Shown: piece by piece, positions 3,053-24,604 of the stretch
Layout of the letters: each line of letters starts with the position of its first letter
How positions within the stretch are numbered: the stretch's first letter is position 1
IMG/VR virus record: IMGVR_UViG_3300025120_000325
Span: 1 to 30,223 of that record
Reading direction: 5' to 3' (one strand)
Length of the DNA: 30,223 nt
Source of the DNA: a virus
Notes under the pieces: generated by a model
Databases searched by the model: none
The model's input: only the letters and a program-made list of their open reading frames with translations
What the model was told of the DNA's origin: nothing
Made by a program: the position numbers and the translations under genes

Positions 3053-3306
3053 TGTTTTGTTTTGTTTTATTTATGCTGTATAAATCTATCTTAAATTTCT
3101 TACTAAAGGATAATTACTAACACATTTTCATACTTTTTAAGAAACATTCTCAATGCAGATATTTTACTAAACTACATTTACTAATGCTTTCGATTTATTA
3201 CAACATTTCAAATAACTAATTAATTATACTGCTAATATACAAAACATTTACTTATTAACAACAATGTTTATTAAATTTTAACAAAACTTTAACATTTCTT
3301 TAACAT
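3053..3306 (-). other. Largest non-coding gap: promoter plus about 170-nt leader with a 14-codon ORF
   Basis: These 254 bases between terL and the 36-aa gene hold no ordinary gene. Next to terL there is a direct repeat AAATGTTAAAG (two copies, about 3284-3306), then the promoter at 3232-3270, then a long leader. The leader contains one short frame, ATG 3147 to TAG 3105-3103 (MFLKKYENVLVIIL), which could be a leader peptide or chance. The leader ends in the AAAACAAAACAAAACA block directly before ATG 3052. I see no terminator after terL in this gap. Confidence 0.6.
3232..3270 (-). promoter_or_regulatory. Bacteroidota-type promoter driving the tail operon
   Basis: On the minus strand, TTG (3261-3259) is followed by a 19-bp spacer and TATATTAG (3239-3232), matching the TTG / TAnnTTTG layout of Bacteroidota primary promoters with one mismatch. 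The block TAAACATTGTTGTTAA (3270-3255) covering the -33 box recurs with one difference at the promoter at 14854-14892. Transcription would start near 3225 and read the small membrane genes and tail genes. Confidence 0.65.
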
Positions 3307-4470
3307 TTAGTAAATGTAATATTGACCCTTATTAGGATTCTCTAATTGTGAAGTAATAGCATACCTCATCGCATCTATACAATGGTTAAAAGCATCTATT
3401 GGTTTGTTAAGTGTTTCTCCTTCTTTGTTCTTTAACCAAATGTAGTTCTGTAGTTCTTTGATTAAGTTATGACTTCTATTAGTTATATATATTTCGTTTT
3501 GGTTGATGAGGTTGATACCATACACTATTGAGTCTTTACCTTTCTTTACAGGTAATACTAAATGACCATAGCTTGACAGTTCTGCAATACTCTTAGGCTC
3601 TGCACTATCTGCATATATAATATCTTTTGCCTCGTGTGTTTTAAGTAAGTTACTTATCTGACTATTTAGCAATCCTCTTTGATATATTACCTCATCAAAT
3701 ATGTAAGCGTTGTTATATTTATAAAGTGCTATTAAGGTTGAGGGGTCGTTGGTGTACCCAAAATCCATCCCGTAACAAAGTAGTCTTGCCTCGTCTGGTA
3801 AGTCAATTGGTTTCCAGTCTTTAATACAAGCACCTTCTAAACTTCCTATCTCTCCTAGTCCATATACATTCCACCAGTTGTTCCAGTATGTAGATGTCTT
3901 TGCTTTTTCTTTAGCTTTCTCTATGTCGTTTATAATTGTGTCTGGTAATGCTTCGTTGTCTAAATACGTAAGCTTAATAAAGTCAGCATCTTCTTTGCCT
4001 TGTAGTTCTGTATGTGCCCAAAATGATGAGGTAGGGTTAAAGTCAATCCATATCTCTCCAGATGTTCTTATTGCTAATTGGTTGTATGCTTCGTAAGGTA
4101 TGTTGTTAGCTTCGTTTACATATAGTGTGTGTCTTCTTGCTCCTCTTAACTTATCTGCTGATTCAACACTAAAGAACTCTATGTAACTTCCGTTTGCAAA
4201 CTTGTACTTAAGCATTGACTTATTATACTGTACATCATTATAACGATTAGTCATCATCATAATCTTTAAGAAGTCTTTTAAAGCACCTCTACGTAAATGT
4301 GGTATAGATTCACTAACTACGCTTATTTCTAGATTAGATGATCTTAAAGCTCTATCTATAAGAATAGGTAGTATGCCAAAAGTCTTGCCAGCAGATGTTC
4401 CACCTTGAACTATCTTTTTACGTTTCTTAAGTTTAAGAAGTTTTTTAATTGCAGTTGTTACTACAAACAT
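3307..4470 (-). CDS. terL: Terminase large subunit (DNA-packaging ATPase/nuclease)
   Basis: A 387-aa protein from ATG 4470. The N-terminal ATPase domain has Walker A GGTSAGKT (23-30), a Walker B-type strand ending LYVNEAN with catalytic Glu120, and a WIDFNPTS coupling segment (141-148). The C-terminal RNase H-like nuclease domain shows its acidic residues in MDFGYTNDPS (Asp236), IYADSAEP (Asp288) and DAFNHCIDAMRYA (Asp359/Asp366). It cuts and pumps genome concatemers through the portal into proheads. It overlaps the small subunit by TAATG. The nearby portal of a classical cassette is absent: after terL come tail genes, while the portal lies 18 kb away at 22676-24604. Confidence 0.95.
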   Translation of the reverse strand: MFVVTTAIKKLLKLKKRKKIVQGGTSAGKTFGILPILIDRALRSSNLEISVVSESIPHLRRGALKDFLKIMMMTNRYNDVQYNKSMLKYKFANGSYIEFFSVESADKLRGARRHTLYVNEANNIPYEAYNQLAIRTSGEIWIDFNPTSSFWAHTELQGKEDADFIKLTYLDNEALPDTIINDIEKAKEKAKTSTYWNNWWNVYGLGEIGSLEGACIKDWKPIDLPDEARLLCYGMDFGYTNDPSTLIALYKYNNAYIFDEVIYQRGLLNSQISNLLKTHEAKDIIYADSAEPKSIAELSSYGHLVLPVKKGKDSIVYGINLINQNEIYITNRSHNLIKELQNYIWLKNKEGETLNKPIDAFNHCIDAMRYAITSQLENPNKGQYYIY

Positions 4471-5456: not shown

Positions 5457-5872
5457 ATAGATAATACCTCTTGCAATAAATTCTCTGGTTTAATGTACGA
5501 AGAGTTTTTGTATTTAAAGCTTTGTATAATATTATCTAATATATATTGTTTTGTTCTAAAGTTTTCTATGTATGCGTAGTTATTTTTTAATTGTACAAAA
5601 ATATAATAATCACTAGTTAAATGGTTTTTTATTTTATCTATAGAGCAATTAAATGTATAAGATTTTTTACTTGTTGTTTTAACTTGATATTTAAAACCTT
5701 TTTCATCAGCGTAATCTATTTTATTATAATCTCTATCAGCTTTTTGTTTAAACAATTGTTCATCATTATAATTTACTTTAAACCAGTGTTCAAATACTTT
5801 TTCGCCTATATAACCTACTGATTGATTTTTTAAGTTATCTGTTATTTTAATTTTTGCTAAATATGTTCTCAT
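5453..5872 (-). CDS. PD-(D/E)XK-like nuclease (putative)
   Basis: A 139-aa protein from ATG 5872. An early helix with Glu24 (VGYIGEKVFEHWF) is followed by KIDYADEKGFKYQVKTTSKK (51-70). Asp53 and the Gln-Val-Lys triad (63-65) on the next strand fit the E...D...(E/Q)xK pattern of small restriction-endonuclease-fold proteins, several of which have Q instead of E/D. Later strands (YYIFVQLKNNYAYIENF) complete an alpha-beta core. It overlaps mazG by 4 nt and lies next to the presumed base-modification block, so it could degrade unmodified DNA or process replication intermediates; that role is inference. No DNA-recognition domain is visible. Confidence 0.55.
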   Translation of the reverse strand: MRTYLAKIKITDNLKNQSVGYIGEKVFEHWFKVNYNDEQLFKQKADRDYNKIDYADEKGFKYQVKTTSKKSYTFNCSIDKIKNHLTSDYYIFVQLKNNYAYIENFRTKQYILDNIIQSFKYKNSSYIKPENLLQEVLSI

Positions 5873-6183
5873 TCTGTTCCTGCTATTATATGATCTGTAT
5901 TTTTTACAAAGTTGTTATTTATCATTTTTCCTTTTCTGTTTGCTATTTCTAACCAAGCGCCTTCTATTGCAGATTCTATTTTAAATCCTCCAAGTTCAGA
6001 TAAAGAAGTTAGTACTACAATAATGTCTCCGACCGCGTCTGACATTTCTAATTTGTCTTGTTTTAGTATTGCTTCTGCTAATTCTCCGCATTCTTCTTGT
6101 AGTTTTATGTATTGTGTTTTTACATCTCCTTTGTCTAATATGCCTTTGTCTTTGGCCCAATTTCTTATTTCGTTAAATTTCAT
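5869..6183 (-). CDS. MazG-like nucleoside triphosphate pyrophosphohydrolase
   Basis: A 104-aa single-domain protein from ATG 6183. The all-alpha MazG motif is clear: Gln-Glu-Glu-Cys-Gly-Glu (29-34) on the first metal-binding helix, then SDAVGDIIVVL with Asp49 and Asp53, and a closing RKGKM. It would hydrolyse (d)NTPs to NMP plus pyrophosphate. It overlaps the thymidylate-synthase homologue by 4 nt. If that enzyme uses dCMP as predicted, this MazG could supply dCMP by cleaving dCTP and keep normal dCTP out of phage DNA, the job of T4 gp56; this pairing is inference. A general housekeeping or ppGpp-related role cannot be excluded. Confidence 0.85.
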   Translation of the reverse strand: MKFNEIRNWAKDKGILDKGDVKTQYIKLQEECGELAEAILKQDKLEMSDAVGDIIVVLTSLSELGGFKIESAIEGAWLEIANRKGKMINNNFVKNTDHIIAGTE

Positions 6184-6836
6184 GTTATTTTGTTTTTTAT
6201 GTTATTATATAAGTGTAAGTTGTGTGCAAAATGATAATATGTGCCTACTTCAATAGATAACCTCTTAGCAACTAATTGTTGTAACATTGAGAATTGATAC
6301 TGGTCATTACAAAAACCATACCAGATGTCATTAGAACGCATCAGAACTGACATGTTCAATTTGTTATCTAATATTGTAAACTGTACTGCGTATGTACATG
6401 GTGTATCTTTTTGATATGATGACCATTCTTTAGCATCATATATACTTATCGCCGCGTGTCGTGTGTTATTATTCTGTCTAAGTTTAGCACATACATAATC
6501 TATTTGATTATTTCTTTGCCATTGATAACCATAATTAGAATTAACATTACGATTATTATCAGCCATTTTTTCCCATATCGGTGGTATCTTACCGTAGATC
6601 TCGCCTAGCTTGTCTATGCTACGGTCACCTGACTTATACCATTCCCATTCAGCTTTAGCATATTGTAAACTCCAGTTACGTTCTTTGTTTGTAATGCAAT
6701 TATCCATAGGGTTTTGTATTGTAAAACCTACATTAAACAAAGCTTTTGTATTATCAAAGTCTACGCCATAAACTAATATTCTATTAAGTTGATAAGCATA
6801 AGCTTCTTCTGCGTTTTTAAAAATTGTTTTAATCAT
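6180..6836 (-). CDS. Thymidylate synthase-fold enzyme, predicted dCMP hydroxymethylase
   Basis: A 218-aa protein from ATG 6836. The thymidylate synthase core is clear: phosphate-binding TRH (125-127), catalytic Cys147 in DTPC, MRSNDIWYG (Arg167, Ser168, Asp170), and HNLHLY (His208, Tyr210). Spacing from Cys147 to Tyr210 matches E. coli ThyA C146-R166-D169-N177-H207-Y209 without gaps. In that alignment the dUMP-selecting Asn177 is Asp178. This is the known difference that makes phage T4-type enzymes act on dCMP, giving 5-hydroxymethyl-dCMP. ThyA His147 is Thr148. The protein is shorter than ThyA (264 aa). It overlaps the PLP enzyme and MazG genes by 4 nt each. Alternatives are dUMP hydroxymethylase or plain thymidylate synthase. 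Confidence 0.8.
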   Translation of the reverse strand: MIKTIFKNAEEAYAYQLNRILVYGVDFDNTKALFNVGFTIQNPMDNCITNKERNWSLQYAKAEWEWYKSGDRSIDKLGEIYGKIPPIWEKMADNNRNVNSNYGYQWQRNNQIDYVCAKLRQNNNTRHAAISIYDAKEWSSYQKDTPCTYAVQFTILDNKLNMSVLMRSNDIWYGFCNDQYQFSMLQQLVAKRLSIEVGTYYHFAHNLHLYNNIKNKIT

Positions 6837-7726
6837 ATTTTTAAGTCTTTTAAATCATTCCAATCTCTATAAGAATTAATTTTAAGTTTATTGATAGTAG
6901 GCTTGTTAGCGTTACCAGCTACACTAAAAAACCAATCTCCTTTTTTTCCATATTTACACATATAGTGCCATCCTTTAGAATCATAACTTGATTCGCAATT
7001 AAATTTATCTGGTATTAAATCAGAAAGACTATTAAAAGGTTTGTGATAACTATAAAAATCAGCACGACCTAATTCTCCTTGCTGTATATTTCTAGCAACA
7101 GCAACTGCTTTAAATTTTGTATCAGGTAAAGCTATTTGCATAGATCTTTGTAAAACTCCTGTACTAATTACGCTCCACATTGTTTCAGGATGTTTATTAT
7201 GTTTAAAGAAATCATAAACAACTCTTACTCCTCCAGCAATAACATGTGGGTGATTTAATCCTAATGGAATAAAAAATGCACCTATGTTGTCAGCATATTC
7301 TTTTGCATACTTATTAGCGTTTGGCATAGCAGCTATTCTAACAAATTTAGCTTCTGCCCCTAACTCAATACAAATAGCTTGATGATCACTAACTTCTTTT
7401 GAAGCTGGCATTATTAATGTTAACTTCATATTATACTCTTTACATAACCAAGCTAAAGAAATACCTGCATAACCTCTTCTAGGTTGTACATATATTATGT
7501 GTTTAACATTTAACTCTTGCAATTGCTGCATTAAAAACTCTGCTGATCTGGCTTTGTATCCAACACTGCATGCTTCTGATTCATCAATTACGTTAAATCC
7601 ATTTACTTCTTTAACTACAAATGGTTTAAATGAAGATTTAAAATCACTTGTAACACTTAAATATTTTTCTAAAGTATATTTATTTAAGTCTTTATTTTCT
7701 ATGTAAGTTTGTTTATTTAGAAACAT
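6833..7726 (-). CDS. Fold-type II PLP-dependent enzyme (TrpB/threonine dehydratase-like), putative DNA base modification
   Basis: A 297-aa protein from ATG 7726. It reads like a fold-type II PLP enzyme. SVGYKARSAEFL puts Lys58 where the SFKxRGA Schiff-base lysine lies. QPRRGYAGISLAWLCKEY (81-98) replaces the SxGNHxQG phosphate loop. KLTLIMPASKE and HQAICIELGAEAKFV are the typical strands that follow, and GLNHPHVIAGG continues the pattern. No typical SxGGG or GxGxG phosphate cup is obvious, so the enzyme is divergent. It lies between the aGPT-like gene (14-nt overlap) and the thymidylate-synthase homologue (4-nt overlap). It may therefore act on an amino-acid substituent attached to the base, or make the donor; this is inference. 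It is not a complete biosynthetic operon gene, as no amino-acid pathway genes flank it. Confidence 0.7.
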   Translation of the reverse strand: MFLNKQTYIENKDLNKYTLEKYLSVTSDFKSSFKPFVVKEVNGFNVIDESEACSVGYKARSAEFLMQQLQELNVKHIIYVQPRRGYAGISLAWLCKEYNMKLTLIMPASKEVSDHQAICIELGAEAKFVRIAAMPNANKYAKEYADNIGAFFIPLGLNHPHVIAGGVRVVYDFFKHNKHPETMWSVISTGVLQRSMQIALPDTKFKAVAVARNIQQGELGRADFYSYHKPFNSLSDLIPDKFNCESSYDSKGWHYMCKYGKKGDWFFSVAGNANKPTINKLKINSYRDWNDLKDLKI

Positions 7727-8606
7727 TGTTATAATATTTTATTCCGTTATTATATTCTATATGATGTTTACTTTGGAAATTATCAATATATCTTATAAAA
7801 TCACAAGCAACATCTTCCATGTCATAAGGCTTAGAATAGTTTCCTGTTATTTGACAAAGATAGCGTAAAGCTTCGTTTTTTTTCATATTAGGTAATATCA
7901 TCTTTAAGCATTTAGACGCGTTAGAACCTACGTATACATCACTGTCTTGGTCTACAAGATCAGGGTAATACTCAGCTAAATCCATAGCAAAAGCAGTTAA
8001 AACAAAAGTTTGTCTTTTAAAACCTCTTGATCTTAACCAATGATTTCCTAAATCAACTACATCAGTTATAGAATAACCACCTTGTTGCACTTCATTTATT
8101 ATATCGTCAACTAAATTTACAGAGTCTTCTACTATAAAATTTCTTAAGCCTTTTTTTATCATAGGTAATAAATAACCTTTTACATCGCAAAAACCTTTAT
8201 CAGGTATATTATTTACCCAATCAACAATATCGTATCTTTTTAATAATAATTCTTGTACTATCCAAAAATTCCCAAAACCATGACTGCCGTAAGGTAGAAT
8301 GTTTTTTGGCTTATAATTAATACCTGATCCGCATAATCTAAATAAATAAGATAAGTAAATAAAGTTATCTTTTTCTATTTTATGTTCTTTAAAGTAATTT
8401 CCGTTGCCTTTAGGATCTAATTCTTTTTTGTCTATTGCTTCTAACAAACTACTAAAAGCAGCATATTTTCTATTTACTACATCGTAGATAGGAACATGCC
8501 ATATTAAATCGTCATTAATATCTTCTTTACACCAATCGTATCCTTGATATAATCTTTCTTGATTTAACTTTGCTTTACTATAATAACGTTGGAACTCTTG
8601 TATCAT
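7713..8606 (-). CDS. Putative aGPT-pyrophosphorylase / HMUDK-helical-domain-like DNA base modification protein
   Basis: A 297-aa, mainly alpha-helical protein from ATG 8606. Marked segments are YLFRLCGSGINYKPK (87-101) followed by SHGFGNFWIVQELL (108-121), a HWLRSRGFKRQTFVLTAFAMD helix pair (about 189-209), YYPDLVDQDSDVYVGSNASK (213-232) and a C-terminal PYDMEDVACDFIRYI. To my eye this matches the glycosylase-like alpha-glutamyl/putrescinyl-thymine pyrophosphorylase group, which swaps a pyrophosphorylated hydroxymethyl group on DNA for an amine. The match is from memory of the pattern, not a search. Its place beside a TS-type hydroxymethylase and a PLP enzyme supports it. No kinase that would make the pyrophosphorylated base is seen in the window. 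Confidence 0.5.
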   Translation of the reverse strand: MIQEFQRYYSKAKLNQERLYQGYDWCKEDINDDLIWHVPIYDVVNRKYAAFSSLLEAIDKKELDPKGNGNYFKEHKIEKDNFIYLSYLFRLCGSGINYKPKNILPYGSHGFGNFWIVQELLLKRYDIVDWVNNIPDKGFCDVKGYLLPMIKKGLRNFIVEDSVNLVDDIINEVQQGGYSITDVVDLGNHWLRSRGFKRQTFVLTAFAMDLAEYYPDLVDQDSDVYVGSNASKCLKMILPNMKKNEALRYLCQITGNYSKPYDMEDVACDFIRYIDNFQSKHHIEYNNGIKYYNNVSK

Positions 8607-9525
8607 TTATAAAAGTGTTTTTATGTAAATAATAATCTGGTCTAATGTGTACAGATTGTCTTGCTTCCATACAGTTAAAATGTAATGGGTAATCTAACCA
8701 CATCTTTTGTACTTTATATGGATGATTATGATCAATAGAATCTTTAATTAGTTTATTAAATAACTTAACTAAATTTTGTCTTTCTTCTTTACTACCATAA
8801 AATGGTTGTCCTTTATACATTCCTGAACCGGGTATTTTTCTTGATTCATCTTCAATAGGTAATAACTCTTGAATAGTTACATTAATACCTGGGCTTATTT
8901 CTGCAATAAAGTTTAACAATCTATTAACTAATAATAAAACCGCTTGCTCTGGGTTTGGTTGACGCATTAAATGAAATCTAATATCTATATTACCAAAATA
9001 CAAAGTTAAATCAGTGGTGTTTTCTTTATTAAAATATTTGTAAGGTTCTTTCAAAAAACCATGTAATGTTTTACCGTCTAGTCTATTTATTCCCCAGCCT
9101 GGTTTGTAAATAGATAACGAATGAGAATCTCCTAATATTAACTTATTATCGATAGTGCTTCCGCAAAATACCTGTTTACTTGGAATAGTTGTTATTTCTT
9201 TTCTTTTTAATAATGATCTAAAATCAATTGGCTCGTTAAATGTAAATAATAATCCTTTGTACTTATTTAACTCATGTAAATAATCTAAAGTTTTTTGTTG
9301 TACACCTCCAAAAAAATTCCATACATCTTTCTTGTAATTTATTCCGTTGTTAATAATAACAGTTGTAAATTCATGTATTCTTTCCGGTTCATTAATTAAT
9401 TCTATATTATAGTTTGATTTGCTACTAGCAATACTTTTTAGACAATAAGTCCAACCAGCGTTATGTGAATTCATTCTAGTTGGTACGTTACCAAGTAGAT
9501 TAATCATACAAGAGTTATATTTCAT
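8578..9525 (-). CDS. SGNH/GDSL-like hydrolase, putative member of the modification block
   Basis: A 315-aa protein from ATG 9525. The first 120 residues look like a separate Rossmann-type domain. LILGDSHSLSI (129-139) is a GDS(H) block with candidate Ser134. LTLYFGNIDIRFHL (173-186) resembles block III (Gly178-Asn179, Asp181). HIRPDYYLH near the end offers Asp297 and His293/His301 for the catalytic pair. The spacing is plausible for an SGNH esterase/acyltransferase, but the final DxxH is not exact. The gene overlaps the aGPT-like gene by 29 nt and heads the four-gene block. It might add or remove an acyl or sugar group on a modified base. A free-standing esterase is also possible. Confidence 0.6.
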   Translation of the reverse strand: MKYNSCMINLLGNVPTRMNSHNAGWTYCLKSIASSKSNYNIELINEPERIHEFTTVIINNGINYKKDVWNFFGGVQQKTLDYLHELNKYKGLLFTFNEPIDFRSLLKRKEITTIPSKQVFCGSTIDNKLILGDSHSLSIYKPGWGINRLDGKTLHGFLKEPYKYFNKENTTDLTLYFGNIDIRFHLMRQPNPEQAVLLLVNRLLNFIAEISPGINVTIQELLPIEDESRKIPGSGMYKGQPFYGSKEERQNLVKLFNKLIKDSIDHNHPYKVQKMWLDYPLHFNCMEARQSVHIRPDYYLHKNTFINDTRVPTLL

Positions 9526-9781
9526 TGTGTAAATTATTTAATGCTCCTAAATATGCAACAGCATCGAGCAGGTTATCTTCCTTGTGATTATAAGACTCTC
9601 TAGATAGCTTTAATGCAACCATGCACATATACATGTCTTCGGTAGTTATGTCTTTACCTGTTGCGCCTGATGCTATCATAGCAGCTCTTTTCATACCTTT
9701 AGAAAATGGCCCGTAAGTCCTTTCTTTTTCTTCTGATCTTAAATTAATAATTTCGTTTGCTTTGTTTAATATATTACTCAT
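9515..9781 (-). CDS. DUF6378-like phage protein
   Basis: An 88-aa protein from ATG 9781. It has the recurrent phage pattern RTYGPFSKGMKRAAMIASG, KDITTEDMYMCMVALKLSRE and DNLLDAVAYLGALNNL: an Arg-Thr-Tyr-Gly start, an ITxxD helix, an LKxxR helix and a final D(N)LxDxxxYLG helix. This matches my memory of DUF6378, a small all-alpha family common in phages next to nucleotide and replication genes; the function is unknown. The D...D/E helices resemble MazG-type metal helices, so a nucleotide-binding role is possible. The ATG overlaps the exonuclease stop (ATGA). Confidence 0.65.
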   Translation of the reverse strand: MSNILNKANEIINLRSEEKERTYGPFSKGMKRAAMIASGATGKDITTEDMYMCMVALKLSRESYNHKEDNLLDAVAYLGALNNLHNEI

Positions 9782-10461: not shown

Positions 10462-10676
10462 TGTTCTTCGATTATTTCTATTGCTTTATTTTCTAACTCA
10501 TCAATAACTTCTTGTTCTAGTATATCTATAATGTCTTGTCTTCCACATAGCACTTTAAAACAATTGAAATCACTACTAAAATCTGGATACATATAACTTC
10601 CATCTTGTCCTTTTTGATATTCTCCTACAACAACTAAAGCTATGTTATCATATTCTAATGTTATTTCTTTTTTCAT
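10455..10676 (-). CDS. Small acidic protein, first gene after promoter at 10693
   Basis: A 73-aa protein from ATG 10676, starting MKKEITLEYDNIALVVVGEY. It has beta strands first, then the helix IIDILEQEVIDELENKAIEI. It is strongly acidic at the C-terminus. I recognise no family. The start codon follows the A-rich leader CAAAACAAAACAAAATG, 16 nt after the -7 box at 10693-10700, so it begins the operon that includes the exonuclease and modification genes. Confidence 0.65.
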   Translation of the reverse strand: MKKEITLEYDNIALVVVGEYQKGQDGSYMYPDFSSDFNCFKVLCGRQDIIDILEQEVIDELENKAIEIIEEQW

Positions 10677-10692
10677 TTTGTTTTGTTTTGTG

Positions 10693-10716
10693 CAAATATA
10701 AACAATTTTGTTAATA
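10693..10716 (-). promoter_or_regulatory. Promoter of the exonuclease/modification operon with overlapping palindrome
   Basis: On the minus strand TATATTTG (10700-10693) is a perfect TAnnTTTG -7 box, followed by CAC and a very short A-rich leader to ATG 10676. No good TTG is seen at the expected -33 distance. Instead the inverted repeat AACAAAATTGTT lies just upstream of the -7 box (about 10702-10713), a possible operator or activator site. Confidence 0.55.
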
Positions 10717-10873: not shown

Positions 10874-11580
10874 AATTCCATTAGTTCATTGATTACTGTA
10901 TGTCCTCCTAAAACTACTGCGCAAGCAATAGCTGGTTTCTTTCCTCTTTTAGCGTATGCCATCGCGTAAGCAGTTGCATCTATACCACAGCCTACTTGTG
11001 CACCAAAGACTTTAAAGTTCTGACCTACGTACCACTCTGTGTAACATTGTGTGTGTAAATGCCCTTGTATAGTGCTTTGCATATCTGCTCTGCATTTCAT
11101 TCTAGCAGTTCCAGCTTCTCCGTGTATATACTGCACTCCATTAATTACAACTCTATCAACAAATTTCCATTGAGGAACTTCTAACACATCTTTGTAAGCT
11201 TTTATCCATTTTTTTGGCACAGCACTTGTTTGTGCTTTACGCATTATTAGTCTATCGTGATTTCCTATTGTTACGTTAGCTTTAGGAAATGCTTGATACC
11301 AATTAGCTATTTTACTTATTGCTAGTTCTAATTCTTGACCTCCTCCAAGACCATCTGCATCTGATTCGTGATATGAAGAATAATGATTGTCAATCACATC
11401 TCCTATAAATACAACTCTATTACAATTGTACTTTGCATAAGTTTCTTGGCAATGTTCTAAATAACCATCTAAACAAAATGGCTCGTGTAAATCTCCTATA
11501 ACAAGTACTCTAGTTTCTTTCTTTGTTATGTTCTCGTAAGCTGCTTTTTTGTTTCCGTTAATTCGTGGTCTAATTTCCAT
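10870..11580 (-). CDS. Calcineurin-like metallophosphoesterase
   Basis: A 236-aa protein from ATG 11580. The full metal-site signature is visible: IGDLHEPF (Asp30, His32), FIGDVIDNH (Asp61), IGNHDR (Asn107, His108), IHGEAG (His153) and QGHLHTQ (His174, His176). The family hydrolyses phosphodiesters or phosphomonoesters using two metal ions. The substrate cannot be told: phage members act on DNA ends, cyclic nucleotides or RNA termini. A Gly-rich insert DGLGGGQELE follows the second block. It is transcribed with the sigma-like factor, RecA-like ATPase and SSB, so a DNA-metabolism role is the simplest guess. Confidence 0.85.
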   Translation of the reverse strand: MEIRPRINGNKKAAYENITKKETRVLVIGDLHEPFCLDGYLEHCQETYAKYNCNRVVFIGDVIDNHYSSYHESDADGLGGGQELELAISKIANWYQAFPKANVTIGNHDRLIMRKAQTSAVPKKWIKAYKDVLEVPQWKFVDRVVINGVQYIHGEAGTARMKCRADMQSTIQGHLHTQCYTEWYVGQNFKVFGAQVGCGIDATAYAMAYAKRGKKPAIACAVVLGGHTVINELMEL

Positions 11581-13719: not shown

Positions 13720-14145
13720 TTATTTATTTAGGTTTATTAATTTATCTTTATTTACTTTTTTAAAATCTTCTGATTCGTCTTCTCCAAATACTCCTAACTC
13801 ATAAAAGCCAGTTAGTTTTAGTACTGCTCTTGATAATGCTCTTTTTTCAGCCATTTCTGCTACATACCAAGTATTACAATTGCCATCTTTAAATGAACCA
13901 CCTTTTAATGCAGACCCAAAAGTTTCAATCAATGTACTAGGCTTACTATTAATAAATGCAATGGCTTTAAATACTGCAAAGTTTGTTTCGCATTTTATAA
14001 CCTCATAGTTAATATTTATTTTTTCTTTGGCTTGTATTTTTTCAATACCCATTCTTGTAATAATTACATAATGCTGATGTTTATATACATCGTCTTTATT
14101 AAGTTCGTACTTGTTGTACAATTCTAATAGTTTGTCTCTGTTCAT
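13720..14145 (-). CDS. Putative single-strand annealing / ERF-like recombination protein
   Basis: A 141-aa protein from ATG 14145. The central part (ITRMGIEKIQAKEKININYE) is beta-rich. The C-terminal region WYVAEMAEKRALSRAVLKLTG (93-113) resembles the AExRAxxRA helix of ERF/Rad52-type annealing proteins. It is followed by an acidic FGEDESED. The gene lies 2 nt upstream of ssb, a frequent neighbour of annealing proteins. It is shorter than typical ERF (about 200 aa), and the match is one motif plus context. Confidence 0.5.
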   Translation of the reverse strand: MNRDKLLELYNKYELNKDDVYKHQHYVIITRMGIEKIQAKEKININYEVIKCETNFAVFKAIAFINSKPSTLIETFGSALKGGSFKDGNCNTWYVAEMAEKRALSRAVLKLTGFYELGVFGEDESEDFKKVNKDKLINLNK

Positions 14146-14231
14146 TTTTTTTTGTTTTGATTAATTAATAATGTTATTTGCATTCCTAAAAGTATTCCTA
14201 TTAGTAAAAACACAATTTCTGTTTGTTCCAT
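14142..14231 (-). CDS. Tiny single-helix membrane protein
   Basis: A 29-aa frame from ATG 14231 to TGA: MEQTEIVFLLIGILLGMQIT, more hydrophobic residues, and NQNKKK. It has a short acidic N-terminus, one membrane helix and a basic end. The stop overlaps the next ATG (ATGA), and the start is 1 nt from the previous stop at 14233, which argues for a real gene. Function unknown. Confidence 0.5.
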   Translation of the reverse strand: MEQTEIVFLLIGILLGMQITLLINQNKKK

Positions 14232-14908: not shown

Positions 14909-14937
14909 AAAAAAAGAGGCTAACCTAAGTCAACCTC
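14909..14937 (-). terminator. Intrinsic terminator after ninG
   Basis: On the minus strand GAGGTTGAC-TTAG-GTTAGCCTC (14937-14916) forms 9 pairs (two G-T) with a 4-nt loop, followed by seven T and ATTTT (from 14915). It separates the ninG/lysis transcript from the replication promoter. Confidence 0.88.
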
Positions 14938-14963
14938 CTTTCCAAAACAAAACAAAACAAGAA

Positions 14964-15356
14964 TTATTTTAAGTTAGTTAGTAATTCATTATAATAATTT
15001 GTCATATCTATTAATTGATTATCACTATATTTAGTGATTTCTCTGCTTTTTTGTTGTAATTCTTCAGCAGTTCCTTTTCCATAAACTTCTTCTAAATACA
15101 AACCGTATTTATATTGTTCTCCATATCTCATAACATTACAACTGTAACACTGCACTTGTACATTAGTAACATCCCAACGTGTTGAATAATGTTTTCTACT
15201 AATGAAGTGTCCAGCTTGTAACTTCTTATAATGTGATTTCGTGCCACATGTTACGCATTTAGCAATTTCATTTACAGCAAATCTTCTTCTAATAAATTGA
15301 CTAAAAACAGTATCAAGCTTTTTAACAATTGTTTTTCTTGATGGTTTTTTAGGCAT
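14964..15356 (-). CDS. ninG: NinG/Rap-like HNH-type recombination nuclease
   Basis: A 130-aa protein from ATG 15356. KCVTCGT (Cys34, Cys37), AGHFISR (His50) and CYSCN (Cys70, Cys73) form the zinc/HNH arrangement of lambda NinG (Rap). It also has the basic N-terminus (PKKPSRKTIVKKLD) and the helical C-terminus (YLEEVYGKGTAEELQQK). The lambda enzyme acts on branched DNA during recombination. It is shorter than lambda NinG (204 aa) and lacks part of its N-terminus. It sits at the end of the transcript, just before a terminator and a TTTTG-repeat 3' UTR. The ATG shares one base with the preceding stop (TAATG). Confidence 0.85.
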   Translation of the reverse strand: MPKKPSRKTIVKKLDTVFSQFIRRRFAVNEIAKCVTCGTKSHYKKLQAGHFISRKHYSTRWDVTNVQVQCYSCNVMRYGEQYKYGLYLEEVYGKGTAEELQQKSREITKYSDNQLIDMTNYYNELLTNLK

Positions 15357-15666: not shown

Positions 15667-16074
15667 CTACCTTCTGGTTTTTTCGTATGAGCGACCACCA
15701 AAATAAGCACCAACTATTAAAGATAATAGTCCAGTAATGTTTTCTAAAGAATAATCTAAATACCAACCTACTACATAAGCAACTGAAAAGAATATTAATG
15801 TAAGTGGTCTAACATTCTTTGATAGTTTATTATCAGAATTTAAATCTGCTTCCCATCGTTTAGTTACTTCTTGCATCTCTACTATATCTATTTCTAGTAG
15901 TTTTAAGGCTTTTTCTTTGTCTTCTGGTGATAATGTTTCGTCTTTGTCTATAAGTCCTTTAACAATACCTAGAACACCATTAGAAGGTAATGCATCTCCT
16001 AAAGTATTTACAATGCCAGAACCGTTGTTTAGTAAGAACTTACCTACTTTCGTGTCTTTAAACTTCTTCGCCAT
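15667..16074 (-). CDS. Holin (3TM/GTA-type)
   Basis: A 135-aa protein from ATG 16074. A soluble N-terminal half (VGKFLLNNGSGIVNTLGDAL, then EDKEKALKLLEIDIVEMQ) is followed by VTKRWEADLNSDNKLSKNVRP (70-90) and two membrane segments (about 91-107 and 112-126) with a short charged tail. The WEAD...LSKNVRPLTL motif is characteristic of the Holin_3TM family. It forms the membrane lesion that releases the endolysin. Close neighbours are a small membrane protein, an M15 peptidase and a lipoprotein, a complete lysis block. It overlaps the 50-aa upstream gene by 17 nt. Confidence 0.85.
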   Translation of the reverse strand: MAKKFKDTKVGKFLLNNGSGIVNTLGDALPSNGVLGIVKGLIDKDETLSPEDKEKALKLLEIDIVEMQEVTKRWEADLNSDNKLSKNVRPLTLIFFSVAYVVGWYLDYSLENITGLLSLIVGAYFGGRSYEKTRR

Positions 16075-16211: not shown

Positions 16212-16604
16212 TTATAATTTTTTCTGGTAATCCCATCTGGCTCTTTCTCCTCTTATGTCGTAATGTACAAAAGAATCGTACAAACCTAAACCTCCCTGTA
16301 ACATATCTCCGTTTCCTATAAGTCTTTCTATTGTGTTGTAGACTTCTAAAGGTGTCATTGATTTTATAGAAATATCTGCTGCTCTACCCATTATATGTTG
16401 GCTTGATTTAACGCCACCAATAGAAGCATTATATTCTTCTGACCTATATGCAGAATTAATATGTATTGGCTTTTTTAACTCATCCCTTAATACTTGTAGT
16501 TGATTAGCAACCTTTACCATATTATGATAAACATTTATAGGCATTTCACAAACACCACAATTGCAGTTACAATCAAATTCTTCTTTGCTAAAATTTCTAG
16601 TCAT
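16212..16604 (-). CDS. Endolysin, M15-family (peptidase M15_3) D-Ala peptidase
   Basis: A 130-aa protein from ATG 16604. The LAS-type zinc site is complete: SAYRS (51-55), SSQHIMGRAADI with His70 and Asp77, and FVHYDIRG with His114 and Asp116. This fold cleaves the peptide cross-links of peptidoglycan. A four-Cys N-terminal cluster (CNCNCGVC, 12-19) could bind an additional metal. There is no signal peptide, so export depends on the holin. Length is typical for single-domain M15_3 proteins. Confidence 0.9.
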   Translation of the reverse strand: MTRNFSKEEFDCNCNCGVCEMPINVYHNMVKVANQLQVLRDELKKPIHINSAYRSEEYNASIGGVKSSQHIMGRAADISIKSMTPLEVYNTIERLIGNGDMLQGGLGLYDSFVHYDIRGERARWDYQKKL

Positions 16605-17698: not shown

Positions 17699-18949
17699 TT
17701 ACACTTGTGTTAATGCTGCTAATTCGCTATTTGTTAATCTTGTGTTGTATAGTTTGAAATCGTTTACTTTAACATTACTTTGAAAATTCACTCGATTGTC
17801 GTAATAGTTACCAAATGTTATTTGATTCATTGATGGCACAGTTCCACTTGAATCTGTTGCTATTTGATTACCATTTATGTATAATGCAAAATCATTTTGT
17901 TTATAAGCAAAACCAAGTTTATATCTTGCACCTTCAGTTGGATTAAATGAGTTGTTAGAAAATGAAGTACTACCACCACTTTTTAAAAGAACAGTTAATG
18001 TATTATTGTAATTATTTATAAAAAACGCATTATTAGCAGAACCATCATCTATTGATAATTCAAATAAATCTTCACTAGTACTCGTTGATTTATGCACTAA
18101 TATTGCATCATAAAAAATAACACCCTCTGTTTGACCTATAACGTGAGATAAGTTTTGAGTATCTGATAAATCTCTTACCCTCGTTACAGCACTACCAGAT
18201 GTAGGAATATACGATGTAGCGTAACTGCCAGCTTCTAGTTGAGCTCCCCATAAAAACATTGTGGCATTTTGAGCTTCTAAATTGCTATCAAACGAAGTTA
18301 CAGATACGCTTTTAGTTATATATATATTTGCATTACCAGCTAAATCTCCTGATGTAACGCTTGCTATCATACTGCATCTAAACCAACCATTTCCGTAATT
18401 TTCTATTTTACCAAATTCTGAACTTGCCGAAACAGAAGATAAATCAAAATAAACAGTTCTTCCACCACTAACCCCTAAAATACCAAGTTGTAAAAAATTA
18501 TTTGTACCAGCCTTTGCAAATACACTCAAACAATAGTCAGTATTTTCAGTAAAACTTCTGTTTTCAAATAATCTAACGCTTGTGAATGTTCCGTTTCCTT
18601 GATACTTATAAGCAGTTTTATTTCCATTAGGAGAGGTTGTACTATTAGCAGTATCAGTAACAGTAGCAGTGTTGTTAAAATACTCAAGTAAATCCACGCT
18701 ATTTGTAACTTCATTTGTCCTACTTGGCTCTAACAATAAAGCACCTTTAGTATTTCCTTGAAAGTCTATTCTTGGTATTCCACTACCTACTGTTTCTATT
18801 AAACCAGATTGATTAACTGTTGTTCCACTTGATGCTCTTGTAAAGTCAAATGGTAGAGGTTTAAAGTTAGCGTTCTCGTCATTATACGCAAGAGCTGTTC
18901 CGTTACCAGTTGCCCATTGTCCATTACCAAATTTTAATGTATTAGCCAT
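17699..18949 (-). CDS. LamG/concanavalin A-like fibre or adhesin, paralogue 3
   Basis: A 416-aa protein from ATG 18949. The N-terminal virion segment TLKFGNGQWATGNGTALAYN and PLPFDFTRASSGT is nearly the same as in the gene before it. Then come a beta-sandwich (about 80-235) ending in FLWGAQLEAGSYATSYIPTS, the linker GSAVTRVRDL, and a LamG-like lectin domain (about 270-416) with ALYINGNQIATDS and VNDFKLYNTRLTNSELAALT. It is likely a receptor- or polysaccharide-binding virion protein. It is the third of three tandem paralogues; its start overlaps the previous stop by 8 nt. It could also be a surface decoy or decoration. No enzyme motif. Confidence 0.75.
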   Translation of the reverse strand: MANTLKFGNGQWATGNGTALAYNDENANFKPLPFDFTRASSGTTVNQSGLIETVGSGIPRIDFQGNTKGALLLEPSRTNEVTNSVDLLEYFNNTATVTDTANSTTSPNGNKTAYKYQGNGTFTSVRLFENRSFTENTDYCLSVFAKAGTNNFLQLGILGVSGGRTVYFDLSSVSASSEFGKIENYGNGWFRCSMIASVTSGDLAGNANIYITKSVSVTSFDSNLEAQNATMFLWGAQLEAGSYATSYIPTSGSAVTRVRDLSDTQNLSHVIGQTEGVIFYDAILVHKSTSTSEDLFELSIDDGSANNAFFINNYNNTLTVLLKSGGSTSFSNNSFNPTEGARYKLGFAYKQNDFALYINGNQIATDSSGTVPSMNQITFGNYYDNRVNFQSNVKVNDFKLYNTRLTNSELAALTQV

Positions 18950-20171
18950 TGTATATTATGTTTAAATTTAATTCGTTTACCATAGACACCCAGTTTCTGT
19001 ATGATGTTAATGTTTCTAGTTCTAGGTCTGTTAAAATTGTATTGTAGTAGCCAAGTTCTTTTGTTTTTCCGTAGAAATTTTGAGTGCTACCAACTAAATT
19101 TTGAAATTGTATTTCATCAAAAACAGCAGTAGCTGAAAAAACAGCGCTACTTTCAAATACTTTAAACCCATTAATGTAAAAATCAGTATCTCCGCTTTTG
19201 TATTTAATAGCTAATTTATTATTTTTACTTGCTAATATTGTAGATGTAAAATCTATTAAAATACCTCCAATATTGTTATAACTTCTTACATAGGTATTTG
19301 AAGAACCTAATAATAATCTATTTAGTGAATTTGTACCTACAGCAATATAAGCAGTATCAGCCAAAGCACTTATATCAGCAAAGAATACTCCCTCACTATC
19401 ATTAAACACTTCACTATTACCAGAGTTATTACAAGTCTCTGCTGCTCTTGTTACTGTTGAGCCAGATGTTGCTATGTAAGATGTAGGGTAATCCAATAAC
19501 TCTAATTGCATTCCGTATATAAGAATATCGCTTTCATTAACTGAATTTATACCTCTAATTTGCATACCGAACTGGTCAGTAGTTGATACAGTTGCAGTGA
19601 AAGTTGCAGTATATAATTTCCATTCACTTGTTGCTGTTTGTTCTTCTGATGTTTGAGACCCAGCTATCCTAAATTGTATAACTTGACTTGTTCCATTTGT
19701 TGATTTTACCCAACAAGATATGCTGTATGTTTGCCCAGTCGTAAAAGCAAAAGTTTTAACTAAACCACTTCTATCTGCATTGCTATTTCCTACTGCGTCA
19801 AATTGAACTCTTGTTGCATTTTGTGTACCATCTGGCGATGTTGCATAATCAGCAGTTACTATTGGAGCAGATGCGCTACCAACTCCAAGTTTTAACCAAT
19901 AAGAAACACTAAAATCTTCACTATACTCAAATAGATTCGTAGAACTAGGCTCTAACAAAAGAACACCATCAGCACTATCTGTATAGTCTATTCTTGCTAT
20001 ATCTTGCCCCATTGTTTCTATTAGACCATCTTTGTTTACTCTTGTTCCTATACTTGCTCTTGCAAAGTCGAAAGGCAAAGGCTTATAGTTGTTATTGATG
20101 TCGTTGTATGCCAAGACAGAATCTTCTTTAGCTGCCCATACTTTATTTCCAAATTTTAGTGTTTGTGCCAT
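18942..20171 (-). CDS. LamG/concanavalin A-like fibre or adhesin, paralogue 2
   Basis: A 409-aa protein. ATG 20171 (MAQTLKFGNKVWAAKEDSV) is chosen over an in-frame TTG at 20222, because it aligns with the paralogue downstream and shares one base with the upstream stop (TAATG). Layout is as in paralogue 3: PLPFDFARASIGTRVNKDGLIE, central sandwich with YGMQLELLDYPTSYIATS, linker GSTVTRAAET, then a LamG-like domain with DFYINGFKVFESSA and a KTKELGYYNTILTDLELETL end. The central domains of the three copies differ much more than the motifs that border them. Confidence 0.75.
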   Translation of the reverse strand: MAQTLKFGNKVWAAKEDSVLAYNDINNNYKPLPFDFARASIGTRVNKDGLIETMGQDIARIDYTDSADGVLLLEPSSTNLFEYSEDFSVSYWLKLGVGSASAPIVTADYATSPDGTQNATRVQFDAVGNSNADRSGLVKTFAFTTGQTYSISCWVKSTNGTSQVIQFRIAGSQTSEEQTATSEWKLYTATFTATVSTTDQFGMQIRGINSVNESDILIYGMQLELLDYPTSYIATSGSTVTRAAETCNNSGNSEVFNDSEGVFFADISALADTAYIAVGTNSLNRLLLGSSNTYVRSYNNIGGILIDFTSTILASKNNKLAIKYKSGDTDFYINGFKVFESSAVFSATAVFDEIQFQNLVGSTQNFYGKTKELGYYNTILTDLELETLTSYRNWVSMVNELNLNIIYNG

Positions 20172-21475
20172 TAGTAATTTGTATATAATTGAGATGTAAT
20201 CATTTCTTGTAATGATGTCCAACTTGTTAGTGTTTCTAATTGTGCGTCTGTTAATGCTGAATCAAAGTATTGTACTTCTCTAGTTTTACCAAAGAATTTC
20301 TCACTACCACCACCAACATTGTCAAAGGATAATTCATTTAATCCAATTGGCATTGAAGTAGTTGATAAAACTTCAGATAATTTATATCCGTTTACCCAAA
20401 AAGCAATATTATTTAAAGAATATCTAATTAAAACCTTATTAAAATTAGTAATATCTGGAACATTTACATATGCATTCATCTGTACAACTCCATTACTAAC
20501 TACATTTGGTCTTATTACATTGGTAGTGTTATTTAAGTAAATTAATACTCTATTAGTTGTACTCCCACTTGATAAACTTATCGCTCTAAAAGTCCCATCA
20601 TTAGCCAAAGCAGCTATCTCTGCCATCAACACACCTTCTGAATCGTTAAACGTAGCTGCATTTCCAGAGCCAGTAGCAGATTCTGCTGCTCTTGTAATTG
20701 CTGTTCCATTAGTAGGAATGTAGCTTGTTGGGTAAGAGCTGACTTCTAATTGTGCGCCCCAAATATATATAGTTTTACCTATCGTACTTGTAGTGCCACC
20801 ATTAGAATTTGATGCAGACATTCTAAATCTTACAGTTGTATTTGAGTTGTTAAAAACTGCAATACATCTAAACCAATCATTACCATAGTTTATTATTTGT
20901 GCGCTATCAACAGAAACACCACTTCCAAAAGTCGTAGAAGTCCCTACAATACCATTGTTTAAATCAAACCATTGTCTTGCTCCATCATTTGAAGTATCCC
21001 ACAGTAATATATGGCAAAAATCACTTGTTCCTTTTTTTACAAAAAAAGATGCTGTTTGTTTAGTTCCACTAACTGTAAGTGCAGAAGTTTGAACATAATT
21101 TTCTATAGAACCATCTGTAACAGTTAATAAATCAGCATTTAATGCTCCATCTGGAGAAGTTATTTGGTTTGCAGTAATGTTACACCTAGTTGGAGTCCAT
21201 ATAGTTGCTTGTGTCAAATCCTCGCTGTAAGGTATTATATTTGTAGAAGCTGGTTCTAAAAGGTAATGAGGACAATTAACTACTTTACCATTTAATAAGT
21301 CGTAGTCTAGTCTTGAATCTCCACTTGGCACTTCTTCTATTAGTCCAGTTGGTGCTATTCTAGTTCCAGTACTTGCTCTTGTAAAAGTAAAGTCTCCTAC
21401 TCCATCTGATGGGAGTACAGAATAAAACTTGTCTCCTTGTGCTGCTGGTATTAATGCTAATTTTGGTTTTGCCAT
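20171..21475 (-). CDS. LamG/concanavalin A-like fibre or adhesin, paralogue 1
   Basis: A 434-aa protein from ATG 21475. It starts MAKPKLALIPAAQGDKFYSV, which differs from the other two, then FTFTRASTGTRIAPTGLIEE. A central sandwich ends YIWGAQLEVSSYPTSYIPTN, the linker GTAITRAAES follows, and the LamG-like part has AFWVNGYKLSEVLS and KTREVQYFDSALTDAQLETL. The shared RASxGTR, W/MGxQLE..SYxPT(S/N)G, TR(A/V) and C-terminal D(A/L)(Q/E)LETL motifs show common descent. Its different N-terminus suggests a different attachment point, or that copies 2 and 3 arose by later duplication. Confidence 0.75.
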   Translation of the reverse strand: MAKPKLALIPAAQGDKFYSVLPSDGVGDFTFTRASTGTRIAPTGLIEEVPSGDSRLDYDLLNGKVVNCPHYLLEPASTNIIPYSEDLTQATIWTPTRCNITANQITSPDGALNADLLTVTDGSIENYVQTSALTVSGTKQTASFFVKKGTSDFCHILLWDTSNDGARQWFDLNNGIVGTSTTFGSGVSVDSAQIINYGNDWFRCIAVFNNSNTTVRFRMSASNSNGGTTSTIGKTIYIWGAQLEVSSYPTSYIPTNGTAITRAAESATGSGNAATFNDSEGVLMAEIAALANDGTFRAISLSSGSTTNRVLIYLNNTTNVIRPNVVSNGVVQMNAYVNVPDITNFNKVLIRYSLNNIAFWVNGYKLSEVLSTTSMPIGLNELSFDNVGGGSEKFFGKTREVQYFDSALTDAQLETLTSWTSLQEMITSQLYTNY

Positions 21476-22675: not shown

Positions 22676-24604
22676 TTATTTTCCTTGTGGGTTGCTTGGT
22701 AAAAACCCTTTGTTAGGTAGGTTTCTTGGTTGTACTGAAACTTGGTAAGGGTTTGTTACTTTGTACCCTAAAATTGCAGCTTGTCTTGTACCTATTATAT
22801 CCTGTGAAGTTTTAACATCTATTTTTGCTTCTTTACTTCTATAAGTTACTCTTCTCCAGGAATGATGACAATTACCCCCACCTTTATAAAGCCAGATAGA
22901 ATAGGTTTGATTATTTCCTTTAGGACCCCATCCTGGATTTACAGCTTTGTTATCCATTGCAATTATATCTTCTTTTCTGTAAAGTTTTTTAGCTTTAGTC
23001 ATTGCAACGCAAAAATCTCTTGGGTTATCCCCAGTACTTTCTGGTGCATATTTATACCTTACTTTAAAGTAGTTTTCTACACCATTTACTTTTACTTCTT
23101 TATCTTGAGCACTTTTTGAGTTAGGTCTTGCAATACCTGTACTAACAAATTTCCAAATTTTACCTAAAGTTGAAAGTTTTTCTTCACTTTGTAAATTAAG
23201 CTCGTTTATTACTTTAGTTAATTCATCATCTTTTTCATAATCTACATCTTGCTCATATATTGCTTCCCATACATCTTCGTCAATATCCTCACCTAAATTT
23301 ATAAAGTTTTGTAAATCTTTATTTAAATCAATATGTTTTTCACAAGGCATATACCAAACCTCTCCATCTTCTTCGTGTTCGTGGTGTCCTTGACATCCTT
23401 GCTCTAAAGCTTTAGCTTCTGCTTCTTCTTTAGTTTTATATACATCTACTCCGTCTATTTTCTTTAGACTCATTTCATAACCAGTTTCTTCTTCTATGAT
23501 TTCTTCGTTTACTATGTCAATATCACTGAAATCAAGAGGTTTAAGAGTTTTAAAGTATAAGTCTAGTGCAACATCATTAACTGATAGTATTGCATCTAAA
23601 CACTCTATTACTTGATCTTGAAAGCATTGTATAACTATATTGTCAAATAGTTGTGTAGCGTTCTTGATTTCTTCTGCATTGTTTCCTAGTCCATCATTAC
23701 CTTCACGAATACCTAGAAGCATTGGAGATGTAACCCTATGACCAACGATTAGTTTTCTAAAGCACTCATCAGCTAAATACTGATAGTGTTGGGGTGCATC
23801 GTTTAAAGGAATGTCATCTATTGTAGTTTTAGATTCAGAGTTATTATTAAAAGCTACTATTACTTTCTCTCCTCTGCTTCCGGTTAGTTTATTTAATACA
23901 TCACTCTTTATAGCTTGCATTTTCTCGGGGTCTGGTACTCCATTGTTAAAATTGACAACTTTTGTGCCACTAAAACCATTTATACAATCATTTATAAGAT
24001 AATCTCCTATTTCGTCCTCTAGAACCGCGTAAGGCATTGCAGAAGACCAATCTGGACTACTATAATAATACTTACCAGCTTCATAAGGCTTTAAAACATA
24101 CATTTCAACACCATTTGCTTTACCAAACCCAAACGCAGGTATTCTTTCTGGTTTTTCTGTAGGTTTTAAGTTTTCCCAATGATTTGAGTAGTACCAACCT
24201 TCTATTTCCCCTTCATCGTTGCATTTTTCAGCTCTTAATGTTTCCATTGGAAAGTGATGCACTTCTTTTACTCTACCATCTTGGTAAACTAACTGAAATG
24301 CAGCCATTCCTAGTACTTTGTAGTCATTTATAAATTTTCTTAAATCAGACTTCTTAAATAATGACATCATTTGAGCATATTGCTCTGGTCTTTTGTCTGC
24401 ATCGTGTGCTGCAAGACCTTTACCATAAATCATATTAGAAATACCTATAGTAATTGCTCTACAAGTGGTTGAGTTATTGTTTACATCAATAATGTAATTA
24501 AAATAGTTGTTATCTATTCCGTATTGTACCCAATCTTTATTCTTTAACTCTACAACCTCTGGAGCTGTGTATGCTGCAAGTTTTGTTACGAAAAATTCGC
24601 TCAT
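22676..24604 (-). CDS. Portal protein with metal-site insert and C-terminal extension
   Basis: A 642-aa protein from ATG 24604. Residues about 1-350 read as a phage portal: FNYIIDVNNNSTTCRAITIG, KFINDYKVLGMAAFQLVYQDG, PYAVLEDEIGDYLINDCING and LIVGHRVTSPMLLGIREG, a portal wing/stem/clip pattern. From 376 on there is a GVDVYKTKEEAEAKALEQG segment, then CxxHHxH...C..H (Cys404, His407, His408, His410, Cys421, His424), a likely metal site. The last 130 residues (FKVRYKYAPES, YSIWLYKGGGNCHHSW) form an additional domain. Ordinary portals are 400-520 aa. The end may be a cleavable head-interior domain; its function is unknown. The gene overlaps the preceding stop (ATGA). Confidence 0.82.
   Translation of the reverse strand: MSEFFVTKLAAYTAPEVVELKNKDWVQYGIDNNYFNYIIDVNNNSTTCRAITIGISNMIYGKGLAAHDADKRPEQYAQMMSLFKKSDLRKFINDYKVLGMAAFQLVYQDGRVKEVHHFPMETLRAEKCNDEGEIEGWYYSNHWENLKPTEKPERIPAFGFGKANGVEMYVLKPYEAGKYYYSSPDWSSAMPYAVLEDEIGDYLINDCINGFSGTKVVNFNNGVPDPEKMQAIKSDVLNKLTGSRGEKVIVAFNNNSESKTTIDDIPLNDAPQHYQYLADECFRKLIVGHRVTSPMLLGIREGNDGLGNNAEEIKNATQLFDNIVIQCFQDQVIECLDAILSVNDVALDLYFKTLKPLDFSDIDIVNEEIIEEETGYEMSLKKIDGVDVYKTKEEAEAKALEQGCQGHHEHEEDGEVWYMPCEKHIDLNKDLQNFINLGEDIDEDVWEAIYEQDVDYEKDDELTKVINELNLQSEEKLSTLGKIWKFVSTGIARPNSKSAQDKEVKVNGVENYFKVRYKYAPESTGDNPRDFCVAMTKAKKLYRKEDIIAMDNKAVNPGWGPKGNNQTYSIWLYKGGGNCHHSWRRVTYRSKEAKIDVKTSQDIIGTRQAAILGYKVTNPYQVSVQPRNLPNKGFLPSNPQGK

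Follow-up and report, generated by a model that had tools for sequence, protein, structure and literature searches.

A conserved U/G-rich element after ninG in uncultured phages, a likely small RNA matched to the leaders of replication and recombination genes

The locus described here raises the question of whether the short untranslated stretch behind a phage ninG gene encodes an RNA that acts on the starts of other genes of the same phage. The window, i.e. the whole stretch of DNA analysed, is a virus record of 30,223 bases, and its minus strand holds nearly all long open reading frames. Genes for a terminase (3307-4470), a portal protein (22676-24604), an endolysin (16212-16604) and a holin-like protein (15667-16074) could be assigned by profile. 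Located 3' of ninG are a conserved 141-aa gene without a family match, an AAA_25-domain gene and genes for a metallophosphoesterase, a 5'-3' exonuclease-like protein and a DnaA-C-like protein. A preliminary description of the sequence had pointed to complementarity between the ninG 3' UTR and two leaders, of 17 nt at 3052-3068 (including the first A of the start codon) and 15 nt at 10676-10690, and both matches held exactly. The coordinates it gave for the element itself (14961-14942) were off by a base or so, as TTC-TTG-(TTTTG)x3 occupies 14963-14943. The features of this locus are the following:

14964-15356, minus strand: ninG, encoding a Rap/NinG-like endonuclease (phrog_5034, E 4.4e-28)
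14943-14963, minus strand: seed segment TTCTTG(TTTTG)3, complementary to leaders (read from the sequence; 94% column conservation in 15 near relatives)
14909-14943, minus strand: intrinsic terminator hairpin with T run, the predicted 3' end of the small RNA

The ninG stop codon lies at 14966-14964, and the hairpin (14943-14910) has 15 pairs with a T run at its end. Structure prediction for the window left the seed unpaired, 5' of the hairpin, and gave a minimum free energy of -18.2 kcal/mol for seed and hairpin together. No Rfam match at gathering score was found in the window and six relatives (seven sources).

Some further features of the window were recorded. The region 5869-9781 contains a cluster of a MazG-like gene (5869-6183), a thymidylate synthase gene (6180-6836), a gene for a PALP enzyme (6833-7726), a gene matching a phosphofructokinase profile (9515-9781) and conserved unknowns, and it may be compared with the phage clusters known for modified thymidine in DNA, which it resembles. 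Positions 10909-11499, part of the metallophosphoesterase gene, match Cellulophaga phage phi14:2 with 71.6% identity over about 590 bases; this was the only DNA match obtained by megablast of window positions 1-25000 against named phage records. Three consecutive ORFs (17699-18949, 18942-20222 and 20171-21475) of 416-434 aa carry similar motifs (LLEPs/a-TN, TSYI-T-G). They have not been aligned and are possibly tandem duplicates, perhaps of tail or adhesion proteins.

The complementary sites within the window are listed below:

3052-3068, minus strand: predicted target leader, 17-nt complement ending in the A of ATG 3052 (36-aa ORF 2942-3052)
10676-10690, minus strand: predicted target leader, 15-nt complement ending in the A of ATG 10676 (73-aa ORF upstream of the 5'-3' exonuclease gene)
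10693-10700, minus strand: TATATTTG, a -7-like promoter box (read from the sequence; sigmaA consensus TAnnTTTG from PMC9723704)
14834-14842, minus strand: AAAACAAGA in the leader of the next gene (ATG 14828), 9-nt complement to the seed part TCTTGTTTT
14150-14159, minus strand: CAAAACAAAA in the leader of the conserved 141-aa gene (13720-14145), 10-nt complement
6188-6196, minus strand: AAAACAAAA in the leader of the MazG-like gene (5869-6183), 9-nt complement, weak and possibly due to chance

The first two (3068-3052 and 10690-10676) are the longest perfect complements on transcribed leaders and lie about 4.3 and 11.9 kb from the element. When the 55-nt UTR was compared with the 62 leaders of the window, giving these matches of 17 and 15 nt, dinucleotide-preserving shuffles of the UTR reached 17 nt in 0 of 1000 cases and a second match of at least 14 nt in 1 of 1000. 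Same-strand 55-mers of the window (step 11, those covering the UTR itself included) reached 17 nt in 3 of 2743 cases. The motif AAAACAAAAC is present at five positions in the minus-strand sense, two of them overlapping, while TTTTGTTTTG occurs in the ninG UTR only. Shorter matches of 9-10 nt were also found before the ATGs at 14828, 14145 and 6183, and before those at 29952, 29578 and 6045, of which the last two are inside longer ORFs. From the box TATATTTG a start site can be inferred that would give a leader of about 10-16 nt, made up almost wholly of the paired motif. In the family like the 10676 target, 13 genes showed matches of at least 10 nt at 4.2-5.3 kb after ninG, all from one seed group only. 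By a leader-summed score the UTR is not unique in the window, as another terminator near 25,010 scored 26 versus 25 for the ninG UTR, with matches all of 10 nt or less. Since the motif is of low complexity, the case was not rested on the window matches, and relatives were used to decide. The 36-aa ORF at 3052 was below the ORF cut-off of the group tests and thus made no contribution to them.

Searches with four ninG queries against viral contigs yielded 298 loci, three of the scans giving the best 80 of 506, 104 and 222 candidates. Together with the window, 299 sequences were available, from which 247 distinct loci were kept and 52 were dropped as duplicates, for too little sequence after ninG or for a match falling short of the ninG end. 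A terminator was detected soon after ninG in 225 of the 247 loci; the other 22 were left out, some of which (L004, L036) show hairpins by eye. Among the retained loci, near relatives (L002-L035) carry (TTTTG)n at the same place, even where the hairpin sequence is different (L013 type). The last 30 nt of ninG had 96% conserved third positions in 15 non-redundant near relatives, compared with 63-94% in the twelve other 30-nt blocks of the gene (94% in the first block and 63-84% in blocks 2-12). In distant relatives the element is likewise U/G-rich, with a different sequence, and what separates the stop codon from the hairpin is highly variable among phages. The preliminary description would have been refuted by relatives that keep the leaders and lose the UTR repeats. 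On checking, near relatives were seen to keep (TTTTG)n though the hairpin changes, and distant ones to carry another element, which fits the leaders of the phage itself, these also being different in sequence. The unpaired probability of the seed had a median of 0.66 and exceeded 0.7 in 14 of 39 representatives, so that the seed is not always predicted to be open.

The carriers form a large set of uncultured phages whose promoters are of the Bacteroidota type and whose hosts are inferred to be Bacteroidota. Three loci (L134, L142 and L144) have a hairpin-like sequence almost directly after the ninG stop without room for a seed, and belong to a lineage that apparently lacks the element. Matches to ninG were also obtained in 72 named-phage records, six of which were inspected. 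In five of them (Polaribacter P12002L, Riemerella RAP44, Flavobacterium tooticki6-1, Bacteroides BS-TP2 and record LS06-2018-MD07) ninG overlaps the next gene or ends no more than 24 nt from it. The sixth, ctTUS972, has a gap after ninG that is G+C-rich and without a U/G-rich seed. The element was absent in the four cultured phages inspected, where ninG directly adjoins the next gene or overlaps it. An uncontrolled scan of terminators in three cultured phages showed leader matches of up to 11 nt, to which no evidential weight is given. Genome contigs scanned with the ninG of the window contained no relative, and a prophage state is not supported as far as this close query can tell.

The preliminary description had taken the RNA to be derived from the ninG 3' UTR, and this part has to be corrected. 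A box TAnnTT[TA]G was present near the ninG stop at 135 of 225 loci. Other gene ends had it in 163 of 1193 cases, the sequences compared being of unequal length. A TTG was located 22-23 nt upstream of the box at 63 of the 135 sites, far above other distances. The flavobacterial sigmaA -7 box is TAnnTTTG (PMC9723704). A TTG at -33 belongs to the same flavobacterial sigmaA layout. A -7 box of this type lies beside the ninG stop in 28 of 39 representatives, in 18 of the 39 together with a TTG at the -33 distance (19-25 nt upstream), and in many relatives the last ninG codons overlap the -33/-7 region of the small RNA. As this promoter-like box overlaps the end of ninG in 28 of the 39, the RNA would often come from a small-RNA gene of its own and not from a processed UTR. 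Transcription would begin with the first bases of the seed, and an RNA of 55-93 nt (median 70 in the 39 representatives) is predicted on this basis. No recognisable promoter box was found near the ninG stop in the window and its near relatives; there the RNA is possibly cut from the ninG mRNA or made from an unrecognised promoter, and the conserved ninG end fits either.

Before any testing, the elements of distant relatives looked antisense by eye to leaders of their own contigs. For the covariation test, the longest perfect complements of each seed in the 30 nt before ATGs were compared between own and other contigs, double-centred and permuted. One representative was used per seed group, and leaders overlapping the element on the opposite strand were excluded from the permutation. 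With 20 groups, the best match averaged 10.45 nt on own and 8.53 nt on foreign contigs (z 6.8; reversed cores 2.5, same-sense cores 2.2). Because cores of 32 nt had lost the real seed in some groups (L275, L174), seeds were defined from promoter box to hairpin in the tests of 39 and 61 groups. The mean of the three best matches was then 9.22 nt own versus 7.99 nt foreign in 39 groups (z 9.6, reached in 0 of 20000 permutations), and the mean of the three best leaders gave z 10.5 in 61 groups. A test confined to 11 groups composed only of loci fetched after the hypothesis had been formed gave z 4.8-5.0; one of these 'new' groups, L274, resembles L036, which had been seen earlier and dropped from the counts. 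Dinucleotide-shuffled seeds reached 8.06 nt (sd 0.12) versus the 9.22 nt observed. Reversed seeds (z 2.6-3.0) and same-sense seeds (z 2.4) were not at zero in the 39-group test, and part of the signal is therefore due to composition.

Only 11 of the 39 groups beat shuffled seeds individually at p <0.05. The own seed ranked first among the 39 in 10 groups and among the top three in 21 (median rank 3), and in nine it ranked 15th or worse (e.g. L057 34th, L291 27th, L293 and L167 23rd). Compared with other stretches of its own contig, the element scored among the best 5% for 8 of 20 representatives (combined p 2.8e-9), the window element being at 2.7%. Duplex energies gave weaker support, with z 3.7 in 20 groups and z 1.9 (p 0.03) in the 11 new groups. 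Of the single mismatches inside matches, 46 of 142 were G-U pairs on own contigs and 176 of 841 on foreign ones (p 0.003), with the reservation that mismatch pairs from related phages are not independent. The antisense orientation and the G-U mismatches favour RNA pairing over a shared protein site.

Matches of at least 9 nt, counted with redundant loci included, were found 286 times at -10 to -1 and 166 times at -20 to -11 relative to the ATG, as against 62 at -30 to -21. Each bin between -90 and -31 contained 11-42 matches, and each of those covering the first 30 coding nt 56-95. Among genes after ninG, z was 9.4 for starts no more than 450 nt away (38 representatives) and 8.5 for starts at 450-10000 nt (36 representatives); without all genes starting within 450 nt, z was 6.8. 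No signal was obtained for genes upstream of ninG (z -1.25, 35 representatives), and on the same 32 loci the values were 7.8 versus -1.3 for the upstream genes. Among orthologues, leaders covaried with the seed for the 141-aa gene (z 5.2, 20 groups), the AAA_25 ATPase (5.3), the DnaB_C-type helicase (5.5) and the ERF annealing protein (3.1), and only slightly for the DnaA-like gene (1.8); the AAA_25 and DnaB_C families share the profile match phrog_5482 and are not independent. Orthologues of late genes showed no signal, i.e. TerL (0.2), endolysin (-0.5), portal (0.0) and a candidate which we take to be the capsid gene (-1.2), its label being guessed. The sequence before other terminators gave z -0.4, or 1.65 with the best one picked, versus 8.95 for the ninG element (34 of 39 loci). 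With a signal that is present after ninG and absent from upstream genes, late genes and other terminators, the element matches the leaders of replication and recombination genes downstream of it, distant ones included. Early expression of these genes is an inference from what they encode.

The following examples are the best members of their groups, and they illustrate the matching without testing it:

L063: leader motif CACTAAAACAAA on three leaders, 13-nt matches; seed TTTGTTTTAGTG
L211: leader motif AAATAAACATAA on two leaders; seed TTATGTTTATTT
L069: leader motif AAAGACAAAAT on two leaders; seed ATTTTGTCTTT
L158: leader motif TTAAAAGACA on three leaders; seed TGTCTTTTAA
L116: leader motif ACAAACATATAGA; seed TCTATATGTTTGT
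L257: leader motif AACAGAACAA; seed TTGTTCTGTT

For the 141-aa gene, a match of 9-12 nt before the ATG was present in 8 of 20 groups, each with a different sequence, and the other 12 had 5-8 nt only. The eight leader matches are:

window: CAAAACAAAA
L264: TAAAAACAGA
L262: AACAATAAA
L289: ATAACAAAA
L258: TAACATAAAAC
L214: AAACAAAGA
L199: AACAAAAACAA
L067: AAACCAATTAAA

As a separate observation, L063 has a second terminator near 3384, preceded by a segment with a 12-nt leader complement.

Several other explanations of this matching have to be weighed. Chance or composition, by which A-rich leaders and U-rich UTRs close to terminators would match merely through low complexity, draws some support from the non-zero reversed and same-sense controls (z about 2.4-3). 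It can nevertheless be all but excluded, because shuffled seeds, foreign seeds, other terminators and late genes all fail to reproduce the signal. In a lock in cis, the ninG UTR would pair with the leader of the next gene in read-through transcripts, translation would be confined to mRNAs made from the next promoter, and no trans-acting small RNA would exist. This would agree with genes within 450 nt having the strongest signal of any class. However, the signal persists when these genes are removed and is strong at 450-10000 nt, and the longest matches of the window are about 4.3 and 11.9 kb away, which makes this explanation unlikely.

Coupling at the DNA level is considered very unlikely. 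A phage protein would here bind the same AT-rich operator beside the -7 box at early promoters and at the end of ninG, and the operator would co-evolve with the protein. Many seeds are indeed directly downstream of a -7 box, such a box directly precedes 14 of 58 target leaders versus 76 of 1003 non-target leaders, and covariation alone does not specify RNA. Against this, the seed is antisense to the leader with same-sense matching near background (z 2.4 versus 9.6), G-U is favoured among mismatches, the seed occurs without the box in the window and its near relatives, and the matches cluster by the ATG, although their distance to the box was not compared. It is also improbable that the pairing is real and activates or protects early mRNAs, for example by covering their 5' ends. 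At a target with a close -7 box (10676) the inferred leader is short and the duplex would cover the 5' end of the mRNA, but A-rich leaders need no opening, and in Flavobacterium johnsoniae initiation is reduced by structure close to the start (PMC6847099). A unit for antitermination, as in lambda pR'-tR', was weighed on seed conservation alone.

The preferred reading remains that of an antisense small RNA. The element, its conservation, its phage-specific complementarity to leaders after ninG, and the absence of such matching from late leaders and other terminators are shown. At the sequence level the element meets the criterion of a seed that is complementary to distant mRNAs and conserved by covariation, and by such criteria it works like a multi-target antisense small RNA; its expression and regulatory effect are inferred. 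The likely mechanism is that a phage small RNA of 55-93 nt, consisting of a single-stranded U/G-rich 5' seed followed by the intrinsic terminator hairpin, masks the A-rich starts of early genes that lack Shine-Dalgarno sequences. The seed would base-pair in trans with A/C-rich leaders that lie immediately 5' of the ATG on early mRNAs of the same phage, in hosts that are presumed to initiate independently of Shine-Dalgarno pairing, using unstructured A-rich leaders. The duplex would cover the landing site of the 30S subunit and turn these mRNAs off, and replication and recombination functions would be shut off or damped, probably at the transition from early to late expression. Initiation in F. 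johnsoniae needs adenines just before the start and the absence of structure, in a phylum without Shine-Dalgarno sequences (PMC6847099), so that a duplex over -20 to -1 should be repressive. No RNA data are available, and RNA production, pairing in the cell, repression and timing are all inferred.

With regard to the preliminary description, its proposal that an RNA from this site masks A-rich ribosome-binding sites is supported by the relatives, transcription and masking remaining inferences. The two operons named there as targets are replaced by a predicted set of early replication and recombination genes, and its reservation that a low-complexity sequence may match by chance is disfavoured by the relatives. 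A bolder reading, which is slightly more likely to be wrong than right, takes the private leader sequence by the ATG and the one matching small RNA, at its fixed site after ninG, as an RNA address code carried by every phage of a large group without Shine-Dalgarno sequences; by it the whole early regulon would be shut in one step, and it would diverge fast between related phages. If true, this code could decide which of two co-infecting phages silences which.

A search of one open library found no title or abstract start describing such an element in these phages, most subscription journals being outside its scope. The phage small RNAs described in the relevant sections of PMC12197685 represent isolated examples in phages of enterobacteria, Vibrio and Pseudomonas. 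In the present case, comparison of sequences by itself yields the predicted small RNA together with its seed and predicted targets, and it shows that seed and leader have been re-matched many times, in phages whose inferred hosts do without Shine-Dalgarno pairing. This opens a simple test of translation repression where the landing site is an A-rich leader, and a test of an RNA-based early-to-late switch in uncultured aquatic phages.

Several known systems resemble the ninG element in part. In phage lambda, the 6S RNA from pR' ends at tR', a promoter with a terminator shortly downstream, beside a gene of the nin region. The promoter-terminator layout is alike, but the conservation of the ninG element resides in a leader-complementary seed, without support for antitermination. 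OOP RNA of lambdoid phages is also a short phage antisense RNA lowering phage gene expression (PMC12197685); it is, however, antisense to cII and acts with RNase III. The ninG element is not cis-encoded in this sense, as its predicted targets are not opposite to it and occupy other places of the same strand. VpdS of phage VP882 and PreS of lambda are trans-acting phage small RNAs as well, but they bind Hfq, PreS acting on host dnaN and VpdS on phage and host RNAs (PMC12197685), whereas the predicted targets of the ninG element are phage early mRNAs with leaders lacking Shine-Dalgarno sequences. Rfp18 of Flavobacterium psychrophilum is a flavobacterial small RNA with one predicted pairing region for several mRNAs; it differs in being a host gene whose deletion lowers the levels of two target mRNAs, and its pairing is predicted in a stem-loop (PMC9723704). 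The c4 RNA of P1 and P7, which is tied to the heteroimmunity of these phages, and the sar RNA of P22 come close in that a phage RNA pairs near the ribosome-binding site or start of a phage mRNA (PMC12197685). Their target is an antirepressor mRNA, whereas the ninG element combines one seed with several predicted early-gene leaders and shows covariation over many phage groups.
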